Shown here: positions 1 to 42,425 of the stretch, one piece after another
Numbering within the stretch: position 1 is the first letter of the stretch
How the letters are laid out: every line of letters begins with the position of its first letter
DNA from: a virus
Virus record (IMG/VR): IMGVR_UViG_3300046683_000310
Location: 1 to 42,425 of that record
DNA length: 42,425 bases
Strand: one strand, 5' to 3'
The notes under the pieces: generated by a model
Told to the model about the DNA's origin: nothing
Database searches by the model: none
What the model saw: only the letters and a program-made list of their open reading frames with translations
Position numbers and translations under genes: made by a program

Positions 1-143
1 CCATGAGGCTCAATCGAAAACCGCGGCTCCCGAAGGATCTGGTCAAGTCCCCGCTCAGCACCTCGATCCCGCAGAAGTATGTCCGTCAGCTGGAGAGGCT
101 GGCGGCGGCGGCCAAGACGAATCTAGCTGCCTACGTGCGCGAC
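1..143. repeat. Left copy of the imperfect 143-bp terminal repeat
   Basis: Bases 1-143 match 42283-42425 except at five positions: 68 (C/T), 71 (G/C), 80 (T/C), 104 (G/C) and 131 (C/G). The repeat holds the first 47 codons of the RHH gene. All five differences are third codon positions and silent. This is best read as overlap of a circular or circularly permuted genome assembled from a mixed population. Confidence 0.9.
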
Positions 144-176
144 GTGCTGGTAGAGCACGTGGACAGCAAGCCATGA
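3..176 (+). CDS. Small ribbon-helix-helix DNA-binding protein, likely autoregulatory repressor
   Basis: A 57-residue protein. A basic N-terminus (about 1-15) is followed by a strand-like segment STSIPQKYVRQLERLA and a second helix NLAAYVRDVLVEHV, the usual ribbon-helix-helix plan of Arc/CopG-type repressors, which dimerise and bind palindromic operators. It opens the early operon and its stop overlaps the next start (ATGA). The promoter is visible at the other end of the circular sequence: TTGACT and TATTCT with 16 bp between them, just ahead of a second copy of this start codon, and with a palindrome in the spacer. The start falls about where transcription should begin, so translation may be leaderless. 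RHH class is inferred from pattern; regulatory role from context. Confidence 0.8.
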   Translation: MRLNRKPRLPKDLVKSPLSTSIPQKYVRQLERLAAAAKTNLAAYVRDVLVEHVDSKP

Positions 177-1224: not shown

Positions 1225-1410
1225 ATGAAAATTCTAGACGATCTCTTGGGCTGGGTCAACCGTAGGCTAAATGCGCCTGCGAAGACCCGTATCTGGGGCA
1301 TCTGCATGGGTTGCGGGGGCCGCTACGACGTGGCCAACAAGCACGGGCGCCAGCCGGGCTTCTGCTCGACCAGCTGTGCAGATCAGCACGACGAATGGAG
1401 GCGAGGATGA
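1225..1410 (+). CDS. FCS-type zinc-finger protein
   Basis: A 61-residue protein with C27-x2-C30 and C47-x3-C51 in the context GFCSTSCADQH, resembling the FCS and treble-clef small zinc fingers. The N-terminal 20 residues are amphipathic. A GGGAGG sequence about 15 nt upstream serves as ribosome-binding site. The stop overlaps the start of the exonuclease gene (ATGA), so it may be coupled to recombination functions. Function unknown. Confidence 0.7.
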   Translation: MKILDDLLGWVNRRLNAPAKTRIWGICMGCGGRYDVANKHGRQPGFCSTSCADQHDEWRRG

Positions 1411-2279
1411 GCGCACCCTTGGATATGGAGATCCGCAAGCACGGCATCGGCAGCTCCGAGGTTGCCGCTGTGGTGGGGCTCAATCCGTGGACGAGCCCGT
1501 ACGATGTGTGGCTGGAGAAGACGGAGCAGATGGAGCCATTCCGCGGCAACGAGGCTACGGAATGGGGCAAGATCTTGGAGCCGGAGATCCTGAAGAGGTA
1601 CGAAGCGCGGACTGGCAAGCTGCTCAACTTCCCCGACAGGACGTTCCAGCACAAGGACCGGGACTGGCAGCTGGCAACCCCGGACGCCACGATTCCGGCC
1701 GAGTCCACCGTAGTAGAAGCGAAGGATGTGGGATTCCGCATGGCCGGCGGCTGGGGTGATGAGGGTACGGATCAGGTGCCGCCGTACTACTTGACGCAGG
1801 TCACGTGGCAGCTCTCGACGCTGGACTGGGATCTTGCCCACGTGGCGGCGCTGATCGACCGGAAGCTGGGGCTCTACGTGGTCCCGCGGGATCGTGAGCT
1901 GGAGGCGATCTTGCTCGAACGGGTAGAGAGATTCTGGACCAAGCATGTGCTCGCGGACATCCCGCCCGAGATCACGTACACGGATCGGACCCAAGAGTGG
2001 ATCAGGAAGACGTTCGCCAGCCACAACGATCTTCTGCGTCCGGCTAGCGAGGAAGAGACGATCATGATGGGGATGCTCAAGGCTGCTCGGCTGCGCAAGG
2101 AGGAGTACGAGAGCGTCGAGGATTCGCTGAAGCTGCGTCTGCAGGTCGCGATCGGGCACGATCAGGGGATCGCTGGCGACGGGTTCAAGGCGACGTGGAA
2201 GATGGACAACGGCAAGAAGACGTACGTCGTCGCTGCCCAGCCGCCCAAGAGGGTGTTCAGGCCGACATGGACAGACTGA
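1407..2279 (+). CDS. YqaJ-type viral recombinase / alkaline exonuclease
   Basis: A 290-residue protein with the N-terminal signature GIGSSEVAAVVGLNPW, typical of YqaJ-family phage nucleases related to lambda Exo. These degrade one strand of duplex DNA 5'-3' and load an annealase. The PD-(D/E)XK active site can be seen as D93 (TPDAT), then E104-A-K106 (VVEAK), with a supporting Q131 in YYLTQVTWQL. Length is normal for the family. It lies four small genes upstream of the recT gene in the same transcript, the usual pairing of exonuclease and annealase. Start chosen at the ATG overlapping the previous stop. Family assignment is strong; polarity is inferred from relatives. Confidence 0.9.
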   Translation: MSAPLDMEIRKHGIGSSEVAAVVGLNPWTSPYDVWLEKTEQMEPFRGNEATEWGKILEPEILKRYEARTGKLLNFPDRTFQHKDRDWQLATPDATIPAESTVVEAKDVGFRMAGGWGDEGTDQVPPYYLTQVTWQLSTLDWDLAHVAALIDRKLGLYVVPRDRELEAILLERVERFWTKHVLADIPPEITYTDRTQEWIRKTFASHNDLLRPASEEETIMMGMLKAARLRKEEYESVEDSLKLRLQVAIGHDQGIAGDGFKATWKMDNGKKTYVVAAQPPKRVFRPTWTD

Positions 2280-2799: not shown

Positions 2800-2957
2800 G
2801 GGGCACGAGAGCCAAGCGGCTGCGCCGGGAGTTCCGCGAGCGGTACGGCAACGCGCCGCAGAAGACGCTCTGGACGAAGGCGGAGAAGGGCTGGACGGTG
2901 AACCTCTCCGTCTGGCGGATGCTTAAGAAACTCTACAAGCGAGGGGAGCTGCGATGA
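2796..2957 (+). CDS. Small basic protein upstream of recT
   Basis: A 53-residue, strongly basic protein (many Arg and Lys), likely nucleic-acid binding. It is framed by ATGA overlaps on both sides, at 2796-2799 and 2954-2957, so it appears coupled to recT. Similar small basic genes are common next to phage annealases, but no named family was recognised. Confidence 0.65.
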   Translation: MRGTRAKRLRREFRERYGNAPQKTLWTKAEKGWTVNLSVWRMLKKLYKRGELR

Positions 2958-3826
2958 GCGACGAGAAGCCGGCCCAGCTGCCGGCGCTGAAGGATCGGAT
3001 GGCCAATCTGCGAGGGATGCTCGAACGGGCCAAGGGCTCGATGGCGATGATCATCCCCAAGCACGTGACGCCTGAGCGGATGATCAAGCTGGCGCTGGTG
3101 GCTGCTAGCCGGACGCCGAGGCTGCTCGAATGCACGCCTGAGTCGATCGTTCAGGGCGTCATGACATCGAGCCAGCTGGGGCTGGACATCGGGGGACCGC
3201 TGGGCGCCGCGTACCTCGTGCCGTACAAGAACAAGAACGGCAAGATGGAGGCTCAGTTCATCCCCGGCTACCGTGGTCTTATTGATCTGGCCAGAAGGAG
3301 CGGGCAGATCATGTCGATCGAGGCTCGCGTGGTCCACGAGAAAGACATCTTCGAGTTCGAGTACGGGCTGGCGCCGCGGCTGCGCCACGTGCCAACGCCG
3401 GATGCGGAGCCGGGCAAGGTGATGTACGCCTACGCCGTGGCGAGGCTGAAGGATTCCGATCCGCAGGTGGAGGTCATGACGACGCGCCAGCTGGACGGCA
3501 TCCGCAAGAGGAGCCGCGCAGCGAATGACGGTCCGTGGGTGACGGATACCGAGGAGATGTACCGCAAGACGGTGGTGCGCCGGCTGGTCAAGTACCTGCC
3601 GATGAGCGTGGAGCTGGCGACGGCGCTGGAGCTAGAGGATCGCGCAGAGACCGGGGAGCCGACCGCGATCGACGTGGATCTGGTGCCGGAGCAGACCGAG
3701 CCCGAGAGCCGCGTGGCGGAGCTGAAGGATCGGCTGAAGGATATCCCCACCTCGGCGCCGTTCCCAACCGTTGCGCAGATGAGTTTGGCGAGTGACGCGG
3801 CGCGCGAGGTCGGGGAGGAAGGGTGA
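2954..3826 (+). CDS. recT: RecT-family single-strand annealing protein
   Basis: A 290-residue protein, normal length for RecT. The core runs from about 40 to 230, with the diagnostic LGLDIGGPLGAAYLVPY (75-91), then PGYRGLIDLARRSG (104-117), EARVVHEKD (123-131) and a basic C-terminal helix YRKTVVRRLVKYLP (203-216). RecT coats single-stranded DNA and promotes annealing and strand exchange, working with the exonuclease encoded upstream. The start overlaps the previous stop. A second, much more divergent RecT-like protein is encoded at 41496-42233. Confidence 0.95.
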   Translation: MSDEKPAQLPALKDRMANLRGMLERAKGSMAMIIPKHVTPERMIKLALVAASRTPRLLECTPESIVQGVMTSSQLGLDIGGPLGAAYLVPYKNKNGKMEAQFIPGYRGLIDLARRSGQIMSIEARVVHEKDIFEFEYGLAPRLRHVPTPDAEPGKVMYAYAVARLKDSDPQVEVMTTRQLDGIRKRSRAANDGPWVTDTEEMYRKTVVRRLVKYLPMSVELATALELEDRAETGEPTAIDVDLVPEQTEPESRVAELKDRLKDIPTSAPFPTVAQMSLASDAAREVGEEG

Positions 3827-5082: not shown

Positions 5083-5363
5083 CCCCTCTAATGCCCATCC
5101 CGAAAGCGCCGGCGTGCAGGATCTGCCACAAGCCGATGCGGCCGATCGGGGAGAAATTTCAGAGCTGGGTTTTCTACGGATGCGACGACGGCCGCTGCGA
5201 TTTCGCCACGATGGTCTCGGCGCCCGTGTCACCCCCTATCCCTGCTATGTCCCGCGTGCCGATCGGGCTTCCTGCGCCATCCCAGCGCGTCGAAAAGGAG
5301 CGAGATGAGCCGAAAAACCCTGTTTCTCCTGATTCCTCTTCTCTTGAGCTTTTGTTCGACTAG
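5076..5363 (+). CDS. Zinc-ribbon protein with disordered tail
   Basis: A 95-residue protein. C14-x2-C17 and C36-x4-C41 with an aromatic strand between them (WVFYGCDD) form a probable single zinc ribbon. The Pro/Ser-rich tail (50-95) is probably disordered and overlaps the start of the secreted-protein gene by 59 bases. The ATG at 5091 is an alternative start that keeps the zinc site. Confidence 0.6.
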   Translation: MLTPLMPIPKAPACRICHKPMRPIGEKFQSWVFYGCDDGRCDFATMVSAPVSPPIPAMSRVPIGLPAPSQRVEKERDEPKNPVSPDSSSLELLFD

Positions 5364-6192
5364 CCGTGCGGATGTCTACACGACACGGGATTTTCGGACC
5401 GTGCTCAACGTCACGACGGGCCAGCAGTCGATCGCGCTCTGCGGACCGAACGGTCTGGGCGTCTTCGTAAACTCGACCGACACCGGGGGCGTCTCGTGCA
5501 TCGACGCGAACGGCCCGGTTCAGAGCGGAACCCTTGTCTGGATTCACATGAACAGCTCGATCTACGTCGAGAGCACGTGCGCGATCGGCGCCTACGCGCT
5601 CTGCGGCGTTCTTCCCGGCAACACCACCAGTCAATGCGACGTGGCCTTGGGCTTCCAAGCCTTCCGTGCTACTGATCTGGCCTACATGGGAGAGTCGGAC
5701 AGCTTCGGCGGCCCGCTTCGCTTCCCGATCGTCAAGGAGTACATATGCGCAACTGCAACCCCTTTGCCGCCGACAAGCACGCCTACGGCGAGGACTACAT
5801 CTGTTGCAACCTCGACTGCCACACCCATGTTTACGGCGGTCCCGACTTCCACACCCCCAACTGCAACGCGGACGCCTACGCCTTTCTGCTTCCCGCCGTT
5901 CTGTGTGAGCCCGTCTCCCACCAGATCCCCGCTCACTACTTCGACACCGACCCCTACTTTAGCGCCGTCTTCCGTCTCGACCGCAACGCCGGCCCCGTCC
6001 GGGACACCGGTGTACATCTGTGTAACGACAACACCGGTGCCGCCAGCTCCAGCTCCGGCCGGCATCCCGTTGAGGACGCCGAGCCCTAGGCCCGCGGGTG
6101 GCTCTGGGGGAGGATGTGGAGGAGGGGCCGGCGCCTACGCCGGGCTACCGCTTGCGGGGCTTCTCTTTGGGCGTTGGAAGGGGCGGCGGTAG
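5305..6192 (+). CDS. Secreted Thr/Pro-rich protein with CTERM-like sorting tail
   Basis: A 295-residue exported protein. Residues 1-22 are a clear signal peptide ending near SRA|D. A globular domain (about 23-148) holds several cysteines, probably disulphide-bonded. Residues 150-262 are a low-complexity Thr/Pro linker. The C-terminus has GGSGGGCGGG (265-274), a short hydrophobic span, then RWKGRR at the end. This three-part tail resembles Synerg-, JDVT- or MYXO-CTERM sorting signals, in which a protease processes the protein at the envelope. A phage-encoded version would place the protein on the host surface, for example for exclusion or altered adsorption; that is inference. GGAG precedes the ATG. 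Its end overlaps the convergent gene by 48 bases. Confidence 0.75.
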   Translation: MSRKTLFLLIPLLLSFCSTSRADVYTTRDFRTVLNVTTGQQSIALCGPNGLGVFVNSTDTGGVSCIDANGPVQSGTLVWIHMNSSIYVESTCAIGAYALCGVLPGNTTSQCDVALGFQAFRATDLAYMGESDSFGGPLRFPIVKEYICATATPLPPTSTPTARTTSVATSTATPMFTAVPTSTPPTATRTPTPFCFPPFCVSPSPTRSPLTTSTPTPTLAPSSVSTATPAPSGTPVYICVTTTPVPPAPAPAGIPLRTPSPRPAGGSGGGCGGGAGAYAGLPLAGLLFGRWKGRR

Positions 6193-8252: not shown

Positions 8253-8268
8253 AGCTAGACACCTAGCT
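8253..8268 (-). terminator. Short hairpin at the end of the DUF932 gene
   Basis: AGCTAG and CTAGCT pair around ACAC, straddling the stop codon of the DUF932 gene. The stem is only 6 bp and no T-run follows, so it may pause or partly attenuate transcription into the downstream genes of the operon rather than terminate it. Confidence 0.3.
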
Positions 8269-9393
8269 GAGGATCGAGTCCAGAAGCGCCGCCCCAACTG
8301 CCTGATGACCACCGCGCGGGCTGAGTACCGGGATTTCGATCTCGCGACCGTCCGTGGTCTGGTAGATCGCCGTGAAGATCGCTTGCTTGATTTCGTCGCC
8401 GCGACCGTCGAGGATGCTATCCATCCGCTTTTCGGCTTTGCTGCCACCCGTCGTTTCCCGTTGCCTGTAGGCGAGATCGTGATCCGTCCACTGAGAGACC
8501 GCGTTGTAGAGACCCCATTTGCCCATGTCCTTGTTCTCGTCAAGCCCAAGGGCCGCCAGCATGTACTGCGCGGCGCCCTTAGCGTCTTCCGCCCGCTTAT
8601 CGGCCGCCCGTTTGGTGTCGGAAGACTTGGTCTCGCCAAACGCTTTGACCACAGCTGCCTTGACGATCGTTCCAACCAAGTCCGGAGTCGCTTCTTCGTT
8701 CGCGAGCTTCTCCGCCTTACCAGCGAACGCCTCGATCGCCTTCTGGGCCGTTCCGACCGACGCCAACACGTCCTTGATCCGATCCGCGGACGCTTTGGTA
8801 TGCCGGAAGGAATAATCGAAACTGGTACCGGTTTCGCGCAGCGCGATCTTCGTCGTATTGCTGCAGACCACGCGCGTGTTTACCGCCTTGGCCTTGGTAG
8901 GGCTGGTCCCGTCGTAGGAAGTCCGAAAGAACACGTAGTTCTCCGTCAGATCCTTCCCTTTGACCTTGAACTGCCCAGCCTGTACCAGAGCGAAAACCTC
9001 ACGACCGTTCCGAAGAACGCCGGCCGTTTCGAATTTCGCACCGCCCAGAGCAACGTCAACATCCCGGAAGAAATCCGTGTGTTGCGTGATCTCATACCGG
9101 TTGCCAACGATCGCCAGAGGATTCCCGGTGTCTTCCCGAATAATCGCCCGTGCGAAATCAATCGGCCGGCCGTTCGCTTGAAGCGAATCCGAGAACGCCA
9201 CCCGATAATTGATCCCATTGGACATTAAATCCGAGAAGGTAAGAGAATCGCCCTGCAGTTGCTTTCCGAGACCATGCCACGCGGTAACGCGGCCGCCGTG
9301 TGTTGCCTCGACAAATCGCGCAGCCGTCTTATCAGCACCAGCCGCCGCACCTTCGAGACCGACACGCCCGAAAATCTCAATATCGTCGCTCAT
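8263..9393 (-). CDS. DUF932 phage/plasmid-like protein
   Basis: A 376-residue protein with AWHGLGKQL (38-46) and later blocks NPLAIVGNRYEI and NTRVVCSNTT, characteristic of the DUF932 (phage/plasmid-like TIGR03299) family. Members occur in phages and conjugative elements and their role is not established; a DNA-related function is often assumed. It is the first gene of the leftward operon. A long structured leader precedes it, and a 13-bp stem covers its ribosome-binding site (GGAGAAG), so its translation is likely regulated. Confidence 0.85.
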   Translation of the reverse strand: MSDDIEIFGRVGLEGAAAGADKTAARFVEATHGGRVTAWHGLGKQLQGDSLTFSDLMSNGINYRVAFSDSLQANGRPIDFARAIIREDTGNPLAIVGNRYEITQHTDFFRDVDVALGGAKFETAGVLRNGREVFALVQAGQFKVKGKDLTENYVFFRTSYDGTSPTKAKAVNTRVVCSNTTKIALRETGTSFDYSFRHTKASADRIKDVLASVGTAQKAIEAFAGKAEKLANEEATPDLVGTIVKAAVVKAFGETKSSDTKRAADKRAEDAKGAAQYMLAALGLDENKDMGKWGLYNAVSQWTDHDLAYRQRETTGGSKAEKRMDSILDGRGDEIKQAIFTAIYQTTDGREIEIPVLSPRGGHQAVGAALLDSILS

Positions 9394-10229: not shown

Positions 10230-10548
10230 CACTCTACACATTATCGGACGCTGTAGACAGGTCAACGGGTTACGCCGTCGCCATCCGCCCCTTTCGCCAA
10301 TACCACAACCCCTAGTGGCTATCCAGTAAGAGAGTCCCTTACCTGTCCCTGTAAGAGTCAGTGGGGCTGCAGGGAGAGACGAGGACAAGGGACTACTGAC
10401 GCGGGGGGGTCGGTCGCCGCCGCAGCGACGATTTATCGCCAGTAATCCCCAGCAGGATCTTGAGCCTCGAAAGGTTTTTCTCTCTCTGAATAATTCATTT
10501 TGAATTATTGAATATTGGTGGGAGAGTAAATGGTGGAGGTGGGCCGAG
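10230..10548. other. Non-coding stretch with nested inverted repeats
   Basis: No convincing gene lies in these 319 bases on either strand. AGTCCCTT (10333-10340) pairs with AAGGGACT (10387-10394), and inside it TCCCTG (10346-10351) with CAGGGA (10370-10375). A GTCGC/GCGAC hairpin follows near 10414-10430. A 21-bp perfect inverted repeat sits at 10489-10509. The stretch could hold a small RNA, a terminator for the 9927 gene, or operator sites. Confidence 0.5.
10489..10509. promoter_or_regulatory. 21-bp perfect inverted repeat, likely operator
   Basis: AATAATTCA, TTT, TGAATTATT: 9-bp arms, all A/T except one pair, 40 bases upstream of the gene at 10549. An AT-only stem is a poor terminator, so a protein-binding site is more likely. 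Confidence 0.5.
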
Positions 10549-41465: not shown

Positions 41466-41495
41466 GGTACCCTCCGGGGCAGGAGGCTTCCCTTC

Positions 41496-42233
41496 ATGCC
41501 CGAAATTAATCTAGCCGACGACTCGCCCCAGCCCGTCAAGCGCGGCCGTGGCCGACCCCGGAAAAATCCCGAGCCGATCCCCGAAAATCCCGAGCCCCGA
41601 ATTTCCCTCGCAGAGCCAGAGCCGGAGGTCGCTCCGGTTCCGGTCGCTCCGCCGCCGGCCAAGGACGCCGTGGACATCACGCTGGCGGCCGCGGCGCAGC
41701 AGGTGATCCACCTCTCGTCGTGGCTCAAGGGCGTCCAGCCAGCCAGTCTCTACGACGCCATCCGGGCAGCCTTCCGTCTCGGTCTCGATCCCAGCGGCGT
41801 CGGCAGCTTCGCGCGCGTGGTCATGCGCAACGGTTCGTCCGTGCTCGTCTTGGGAGACAACGGCATTCTCCGTCTGGCGATGCAGAGCGGCGAGTTCGCC
41901 TTTCTGGAAGCGCGGCCGGTCTTCGAGAAGGACACCTTCGCGCTGGACTACGCCCAGCAGATCCTGCAGCACGCGCCGCACGCGGGCGAGGATGGGCCCG
42001 GCGCGATCCACGGTGCTTACGCGGTCTACTTGGACCGTAACGGGATTCGCCACATGCAGTTCGTCAGCGGGCGCGAGATCAAGGAAGGGTCCGACCGGAT
42101 GCTGATCTCTGGCATGACGGCTGAGGAGGTCTGCCGGAAGGTGGCGCTCTGCGCGCTGCTAGCGATGGCTCCCATCCCTCTCTCGGAGCTGCGGCACGCT
42201 CTGGACTTCGAGACGCGGTCGGCAGCTCAATAA
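41496..42233 (+). CDS. Second, divergent RecT-like protein with N-terminal AT-hook
   Basis: A 245-residue protein. Residues 15-23 (KRGRGRPRK) are a typical AT-hook that binds the minor groove of AT-rich DNA, in a Pro/Glu-rich, disordered leader (1-60). Residues 84-240 align with the RecT at 2954: LGLDPSG with LGLDIGG, GDNGILRLAMQSG with GYRGLIDLARRSG, EARPVFEKD with EARVVHEKD, GAYAVYL with YAYAVARL, and a final EEVCRKVALCALLAMAP with EEMYRKTVVRRLVKYLP. Several basic residues of the canonical protein are missing. AGGAGG lies upstream. It is read just before the RHH gene. Homology is clear from the pattern; function unknown. Confidence 0.8.
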   Translation: MPEINLADDSPQPVKRGRGRPRKNPEPIPENPEPRISLAEPEPEVAPVPVAPPPAKDAVDITLAAAAQQVIHLSSWLKGVQPASLYDAIRAAFRLGLDPSGVGSFARVVMRNGSSVLVLGDNGILRLAMQSGEFAFLEARPVFEKDTFALDYAQQILQHAPHAGEDGPGAIHGAYAVYLDRNGIRHMQFVSGREIKEGSDRMLISGMTAEEVCRKVALCALLAMAPIPLSELRHALDFETRSAAQ

Positions 42234-42249
42234 TAATATAAAATAATCC

Positions 42250-42277
42250 TTGACTCTCCGGGAGTCGCGCGTATTCT
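42250..42277 (+). promoter_or_regulatory. Early promoter of the RHH gene
   Basis: TTGACT (42250-42255), a 16-bp spacer and TATTCT (42272-42277), followed 7 nt later by the ATG of the RHH gene (42285). The distance suggests that transcription starts at or next to the ATG, so the message is likely leaderless, as for the lambda cI message from PRM. Confidence 0.65.
42252..42266. promoter_or_regulatory. Operator palindrome in the promoter spacer
   Basis: GACTCTCCGGGAGTC is a 15-bp inverted repeat with one mismatched pair, lying between -35 and -10. A repressor bound here would block RNA polymerase. The RHH product of the same transcript is the obvious candidate ligand. Confidence 0.55.
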
Positions 42278-42282
42278 TGGGC

Positions 42283-42425
42283 CCATGAGGCTCAATCGAA
42301 AACCGCGGCTCCCGAAGGATCTGGTCAAGTCCCCGCTCAGCACCTCGATTCCCCAGAAGTACGTCCGTCAGCTGGAGAGGCTGGCCGCGGCGGCCAAGAC
42401 GAATCTAGCTGCGTACGTGCGCGAC
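42283..42425. repeat. Right copy of the imperfect 143-bp terminal repeat
   Basis: It matches 1-143 except at five positions, all silent in the RHH gene. The ATG at 42285 restarts that gene, which runs off the end of the window after 47 codons. Confidence 0.9.
42285..42425 (+). CDS. Second, truncated copy of the RHH regulator gene
   Basis: 47 codons that encode exactly the same residues as the first 47 codons at 3-143, with five synonymous changes. It is cut by the end of the sequence. The promoter at 42250-42277 lies in front of this copy, so it defines the regulatory region for the gene in the circular genome. Confidence 0.8.
   Translation, partial: MRLNRKPRLPKDLVKSPLSTSIPQKYVRQLERLAAAAKTNLAAYVRD

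Follow-up and report, generated by a model that had tools for sequence, protein, structure and literature searches.

Background

Annealing proteins with the RecT/RAD52 fold are known for their catalytic role. In the structure of LiRecT bound to DNA, the inner strand is contacted by Y110, K111, K206, R210, N211 and K215; single alanine changes in LiRecT were mostly tolerated, and after the double changes K206A/R210A, K206A/K215A, K111A/K215A and R210A/K215A DNA binding was slight or undetectable (PMC9772228). AT-hooks have been described on a DNA-repair protein in the phages Omega and Corndog, whose Ku-Lsr2 fusions carry an RGR AT-hook, and phage lsr2 genes are adjoined by AT-rich drops (PMC8612146).

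Here we analyze a viral record, IMGVR_UViG_3300046683_000310 (42,425 bases, positions 1-42,425; hereafter the window), that encodes a second RecT-family protein, RecT2, in addition to a canonical one, RecT1. RecT2 has in common with RecT and Redbeta (LiRecT 7ub2, PF03837, phrog_148) the fold, the motif order, the glycine/hydrophobic scaffold and the alpha3 lysine. Unlike them, it has replaced groove residues, a deleted GPW outer wall, no acidic C-terminal domain and a disordered AT-hook tail in place of the first N-terminal helix, and it fails the NCBIfam RecT cut-off. It also shares the core fold of single-strand annealing proteins with RAD52, although this similarity is very weak and RecT is clearly nearer. 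The Ku-Lsr2 fusions resemble RecT2 in that a repair or recombination protein is joined to an AT-hook in a phage, but the protein is Ku rather than RecT, and the hook is C-terminal and of the Lsr2 type. A common principle is conceivable with the Lsr2/H-NS xenogeneic silencers, in which a multimerising domain is combined with a minor-groove hook and an AT-rich drop lies by the gene, although these have no sequence relation to RecT2, which gave no Lsr2/H-NS family match in Pfam, PHROGs and NCBIfam scans. In the open literature searched, we found no paper on a RecT or annealing protein with an AT-hook, which agrees with a preliminary description of this DNA, made from the sequence, whose author knew of no phage protein with this architecture.

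Genome context of recT2

The genome has a GC content of 64%. Bases 1-143 are repeated at 42283-42425 with five mismatches, and since this overlap spans the very first to the very last base, the ends look like those of a circular or permuted genome. All five mismatches are synonymous within the 57-aa gene encoded there, which suggests strain variants within the assembly. The record probably represents an entire genome, either circular or permuted, in which strains differ at the join. Because the contig ends overlap, recT2 lies about 3.0 kb upstream of recT1 on the circular map, and not at the opposite end from it, with the gene for a YqaJ-type exonuclease between the two (Table 1). Upstream of recT2 there is a tightly packed late block that encodes terminase, portal and head proteins together with pectate-lyase-like, endolysin-like and small membrane proteins; recT2 is the final gene of this late/lysis block, 30 bases past its neighbour, and recT1 is located in the early block. 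Searches with the portal and terminase proteins returned a single near-identical partial contig (L003, a viral contig of 26 kb whose portal protein is 100% identical, but which stops short of the recT2 region) and otherwise distant podoviruses. Defence-system models gave no match to this phage.

Table 1. Coordinates of recT2 and of the associated features within the window
Feature	Position	Strand	Basis
YqaJ/RecE-like exonuclease	1407..2279	+	Pfam YqaJ 2.2e-28, phrog_434 3.2e-63
RecT1, canonical RecT annealing protein	2954..3826	+	Pfam RecT 1.6e-48, phrog_148 8.5e-79
recT2 ribosome binding site AGGAGG	41480..41486	+	sequence read directly
RecT2, 245-aa RecT-family protein with N-terminal AT-hook tail	41496..42233	+	Pfam RecT 1.5e-10, phrog_148 1.8e-15
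AT-hook KRGRGRPRK, residues 16-24, in disordered Pro/Glu-rich tail (residues 1-55)	41541..41567	+	sequence; pLDDT
RecT-fold core, residues 56-245, groove residues replaced, GPW segment deleted	41661..42230	+	alignment of 64 RecTs and LiRecT contacts
Longest pure A/T run of the genome, AATAATAATATAAAATAAT, 19 nt, overlapping the recT2 stop codon	42229..42247	.	run count
Promoter-like TTGACT-16-TATTCT of the early gene block	42250..42277	+	consensus match only
First early gene, 57 aa, ribbon-helix-helix-like by eye	42285..42425, continuing 3-176	+	terminal overlap

RecT2 belongs to the RecT family

The recT2 reading frame begins at the first ATG past the upstream stop. RecT2 scored 41.4 bits against Pfam RecT (PF03837), above the cut-off of 24, and missed the cut-off of the NCBIfam RecT model TIGR00616 (38.1 vs 52.65 bits), against which RecT1 reached 210.6 bits. 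In BLASTP comparison, the two proteins were 28% identical over 172 aa (E 3e-13). Judged by these sequence matches, which lie far beyond chance, RecT2 is a genuine RecT homologue. The ordered blocks LGLD, LxLAxxSG, EARxVxEKD, AYAV and EExxRK, to which the preliminary description had drawn attention, are all present in the same order, and the resemblance to RecT that it reported is borne out by the Pfam RecT and phrog_148 profiles. It was also correct in noting that RKTVVRRLVK of the end helix has become RKVALCALLA and that basic residues are fewer after AYAV, where we count ten lysines and arginines in RecT1 (residues 171-214) and six in RecT2 (residues 185-224). Furthermore, the codon use of the recT2 core (GC3 0.86) equals that of recT1, which fits a maintained gene.

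An AlphaFold model of RecT2, for which 64 aligned RecTs served as the input and thereby favour the RecT fold, had a pLDDT of 82, with most of the core above 90 and residues 1-50 below 60, indicating disorder. The best solved match of this model in a fold search was the RecT LiRecT 7ub2 (E 2.1e-9), followed by LiRecT with ssDNA; viral RecT models were matched down to E 6.3e-12, and the RAD52 entries 8bjm and 8rjw were weak matches (E 0.09 and higher). RecT1, modelled on a separate alignment from which RecT2 was left out, also matched 7ub2, as well as Redbeta 7ujl. Structure prediction for both proteins, which had been proposed as a check, thus led to the same solved fold, and a non-RecT fold for the RecT2 core did not emerge from a model whose input was itself a RecT alignment. 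The N-terminal helices of RecT1 (H9-33) correspond to a disordered region in RecT2, in which they are replaced by the Pro/Glu-rich tail bearing KRGRGRPRK. The RecT2 model has no helix matching alphaA, the first N-terminal helix, which forms part of the LiRecT subunit interface, and this counts against normal filaments. RecT2 likewise lacks the acidic C-terminal region found in RecT1.

The DNA-binding groove is extensively altered

Alignment to LiRecT placed D121, N122, K215, C219, A220 and A223 of RecT2 at the positions of Y110, K111, K206, R210, N211 and K215. Five of the six inner-strand contacts are therefore altered (Y110D, K111N, R210C, N211A and K215A, in LiRecT numbering), with an acid where the LiRecT tyrosine touched the DNA backbone, and the sole retained contact is the invariant alpha3 lysine (RecT2 K215, equivalent to LiRecT K206). 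W96 of LiRecT and its hairpin residues Y100 and K101 are R107, R111 and N112 in RecT2. The near-invariant GPW segment, located in the alphaD-alphaE outer-strand wall, has its tryptophan in 63 of the 63 other aligned RecTs and is deleted in RecT2, and part of that wall is lost along with it. The net charge of the RecT2 core is -3, the lowest of the 64 aligned proteins (mean +3.1 and minimum -1 for the others), and that of the alpha3 segment is 0, compared with a minimum of +2 in the others. The structural glycines, LGL, LA.SG, V142, D146, F148, H159, P161, Y175 and P226 are kept.

We examined RecT2 among 225 RecT reading frames in 232 loci, a set with some redundancy. RecT2 alone has lost all eight diagnostic residues, and 220 entries lose two or fewer. 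The weakened RecT core with an AT-hook that had been described thus stands in outline, but "weakened" gives way to a more specific picture, in which almost all of the groove residues are replaced and the fold is kept, a combination unique among the 225 frames. Its sequence makes it improbable that RecT2 anneals DNA by way of the RecT groove. The loss of nearly all DNA-holding residues, together with the gain of an AT-hook tail, makes it probably an accessory or regulatory protein and not a second annealing protein, although the retained K215 and the hairpin arginines R107 and R111 could possibly make some new DNA contact.

The AT-hook and the A/T run beside the early promoter

The AT-hook proposed in the preliminary description is confirmed as a motif: KRGRGRPRK has a textbook, perfect core (R-G-R-P with flanking basic residues), is the top GRP-type basic motif over all frames of the window, and has no AT-hook-like counterpart in the rest of the 225 RecT frames. 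Its Pfam AT_hook score of 11.3 bits is below the cut-off of 17.4, for a model of 13 positions and a motif present in a single copy. A lone AT-hook binds only weakly; that of RecT2 would be expected to bind A/T-rich duplex.

The run of 19 A/T bases that overlaps the recT2 stop codon stands apart in this genome, where the next longest pure A/T run is 9 nt and the expected number of runs of at least 19 nt is 3e-5 under a first-order (dinucleotide) model. The promoter-like TTGACT-16-TATTCT, which has a single occurrence in the window, starts two bases past the run and contains within its spacer an imperfect palindrome, GACTCTCCGGGAGTC, at 42252-42266. The 57-aa early gene directly follows this promoter-like site with its near-palindrome (42250-42285) and is apparently leaderless. 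Promoter and ribbon-helix-helix-like gene together look like an autoregulated promoter. Judged by its position, the A/T run could be an UP element of the promoter, a target of the hook, or both.

RecT2 has a single occurrence so far

This record is the only one of the 232 loci with two RecTs, and the 107 other records or genomes in which family searches found a RecT gene have one apiece; a search of GenBank phages with RecT1 hit 900 records at 901 places. Scanning viral and genome contigs with single proteins revealed no orthologue of RecT2, and searches with RecT alignments returned canonical RecTs only. A motif pattern from the NGILRLAMQSGE block of RecT2 matched 16 stretches, of which 11 were canonical RecTs and none was an orthologue. 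A weak second-type RecT in another record (G106) turned out to be of another kind.

In the RecT tree, the RecT2 branch is the longest by far, with 7.9 changes per column. Recent duplication of RecT1 is not favoured as its origin, since its scores with RecT1 are no higher than those with other RecTs; in AU tests, a sister position was rejected neither for RecT1 (p 0.25) nor for the L021/L112 group (p 0.45). On the sequences compared, RecT2 is a new form within the known RecT family.

Possible roles of RecT2

The proposal that we prefer, and for which we consider belief and doubt to be evenly balanced, is that RecT2 is a groove-inactivated RecT, or "pseudo-annealase", that acts on A/T-rich duplex. 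It would keep the RecT fold and no longer hold ssDNA in the RecT groove, and hence would not itself anneal; the AT-hook tail would attach it to A/T-rich double-stranded DNA, and the fold would serve as a protein-contact module, with RecT2 itself or with RecT1 as the partner. Its most likely site would be the A/T run at the 3′ end of its own gene, just upstream of the early promoter, from where the DNA-bound protein could have an accessory part in regulating either the early/recombination block or the assembly of RecT1. We also put forward, more tentatively, the narrower suggestion that an annealing RecT has been turned into a composition-directed regulator, in which the groove is dead, the fold multimerises and the hook reads A/T tracts at the early promoter. 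The preferred proposal is suggested by the retention of the RecT fold, the loss of the groove contacts, the unique hook and the A/T run beside the early promoter, and the Ku-Lsr2 fusions offer a precedent. It is weakened by the consideration that the A/T run may be merely an UP element whose closeness to recT2 is coincidental. A working site-directed annealase looks, among the roles suggested earlier, the least likely on sequence grounds because the groove is lost.

It is rather doubtful that RecT2 is chiefly a modulator of RecT1, joining or capping its filaments through the fold while the hook only anchors it on duplex, as a decoy, capper or loader would. The two genes are about 3 kb apart in one phage, and the lower-interface positions are still hydrophobic (LiRecT I114, L118, I126 and W216 are L125, M129, L137 and M224 in RecT2); moreover, a protein whose model lacks the RecT1-type N-terminal helices could receive the upper-rim contact without being able to offer it, much as a capper would. 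However, RecT1 and RecT2 are only 28% identical, and with recT2 ending the late block and recT1 in the early block, the two products may not be made together.

It seems unlikely to us that recT2 is a residual RecT copy in decay that has no function at present. Such decay would accord with the longest branch in the tree, the missing C-terminal domain and GPW segment, and the failure to find an orthologue, but the frame is intact, the ribosome site strong and the codons typical of the phage, the hydrophobic core is kept in a confidently predicted fold, and the selective removal of groove charges alongside a perfect AT-hook core would not be expected from random decay. Least probable of these explanations is that RecT2 is a very divergent but still active annealing protein with an altered DNA path and duplex affinity added by the hook: it scores above the Pfam RecT threshold, retains both the beta-hairpin and the invariant K215, has new hairpin arginines (R107, R111), and belongs to a family in which LiRecT tolerates most single alanine changes, but all 8 of 8 diagnostic residues are changed jointly, no other protein of the set has core and alpha3 charges as low, and the NCBIfam cut-off is missed.

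A groove-dead paralogue beside an active RecT would suggest that the RecT/RAD52 fold lends itself to a second use, in regulation or in the modulation of assembly; it would also extend the theme, seen in phage Ku-Lsr2, of repair proteins joined to AT-hooks. If RecT2 is both groove-dead and kept, it would be a natural separation-of-function variant for the study of RecT filaments.

Other features of the phage

The gene at 5305-6192 encodes a secreted-type phage protein that has a signal-like start, a long Thr/Pro repeat region and no family match; its C-terminus, with a glycine-rich segment, a hydrophobic stretch and a basic tail, resembles the sorting signals of host surface proteins. A DUF932 protein (Pfam 4.4e-39, phrog_1221) is encoded in the early region on the opposite strand (8263-9393, -); next to its gene, at about 9.6-9.8 kb, lies an AT-rich regulatory region whose two strands both have promoter-like sites. 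A second AT-rich island, at 10475-10516, contains the inverted repeat AATAATTCA..TGAATTATT.
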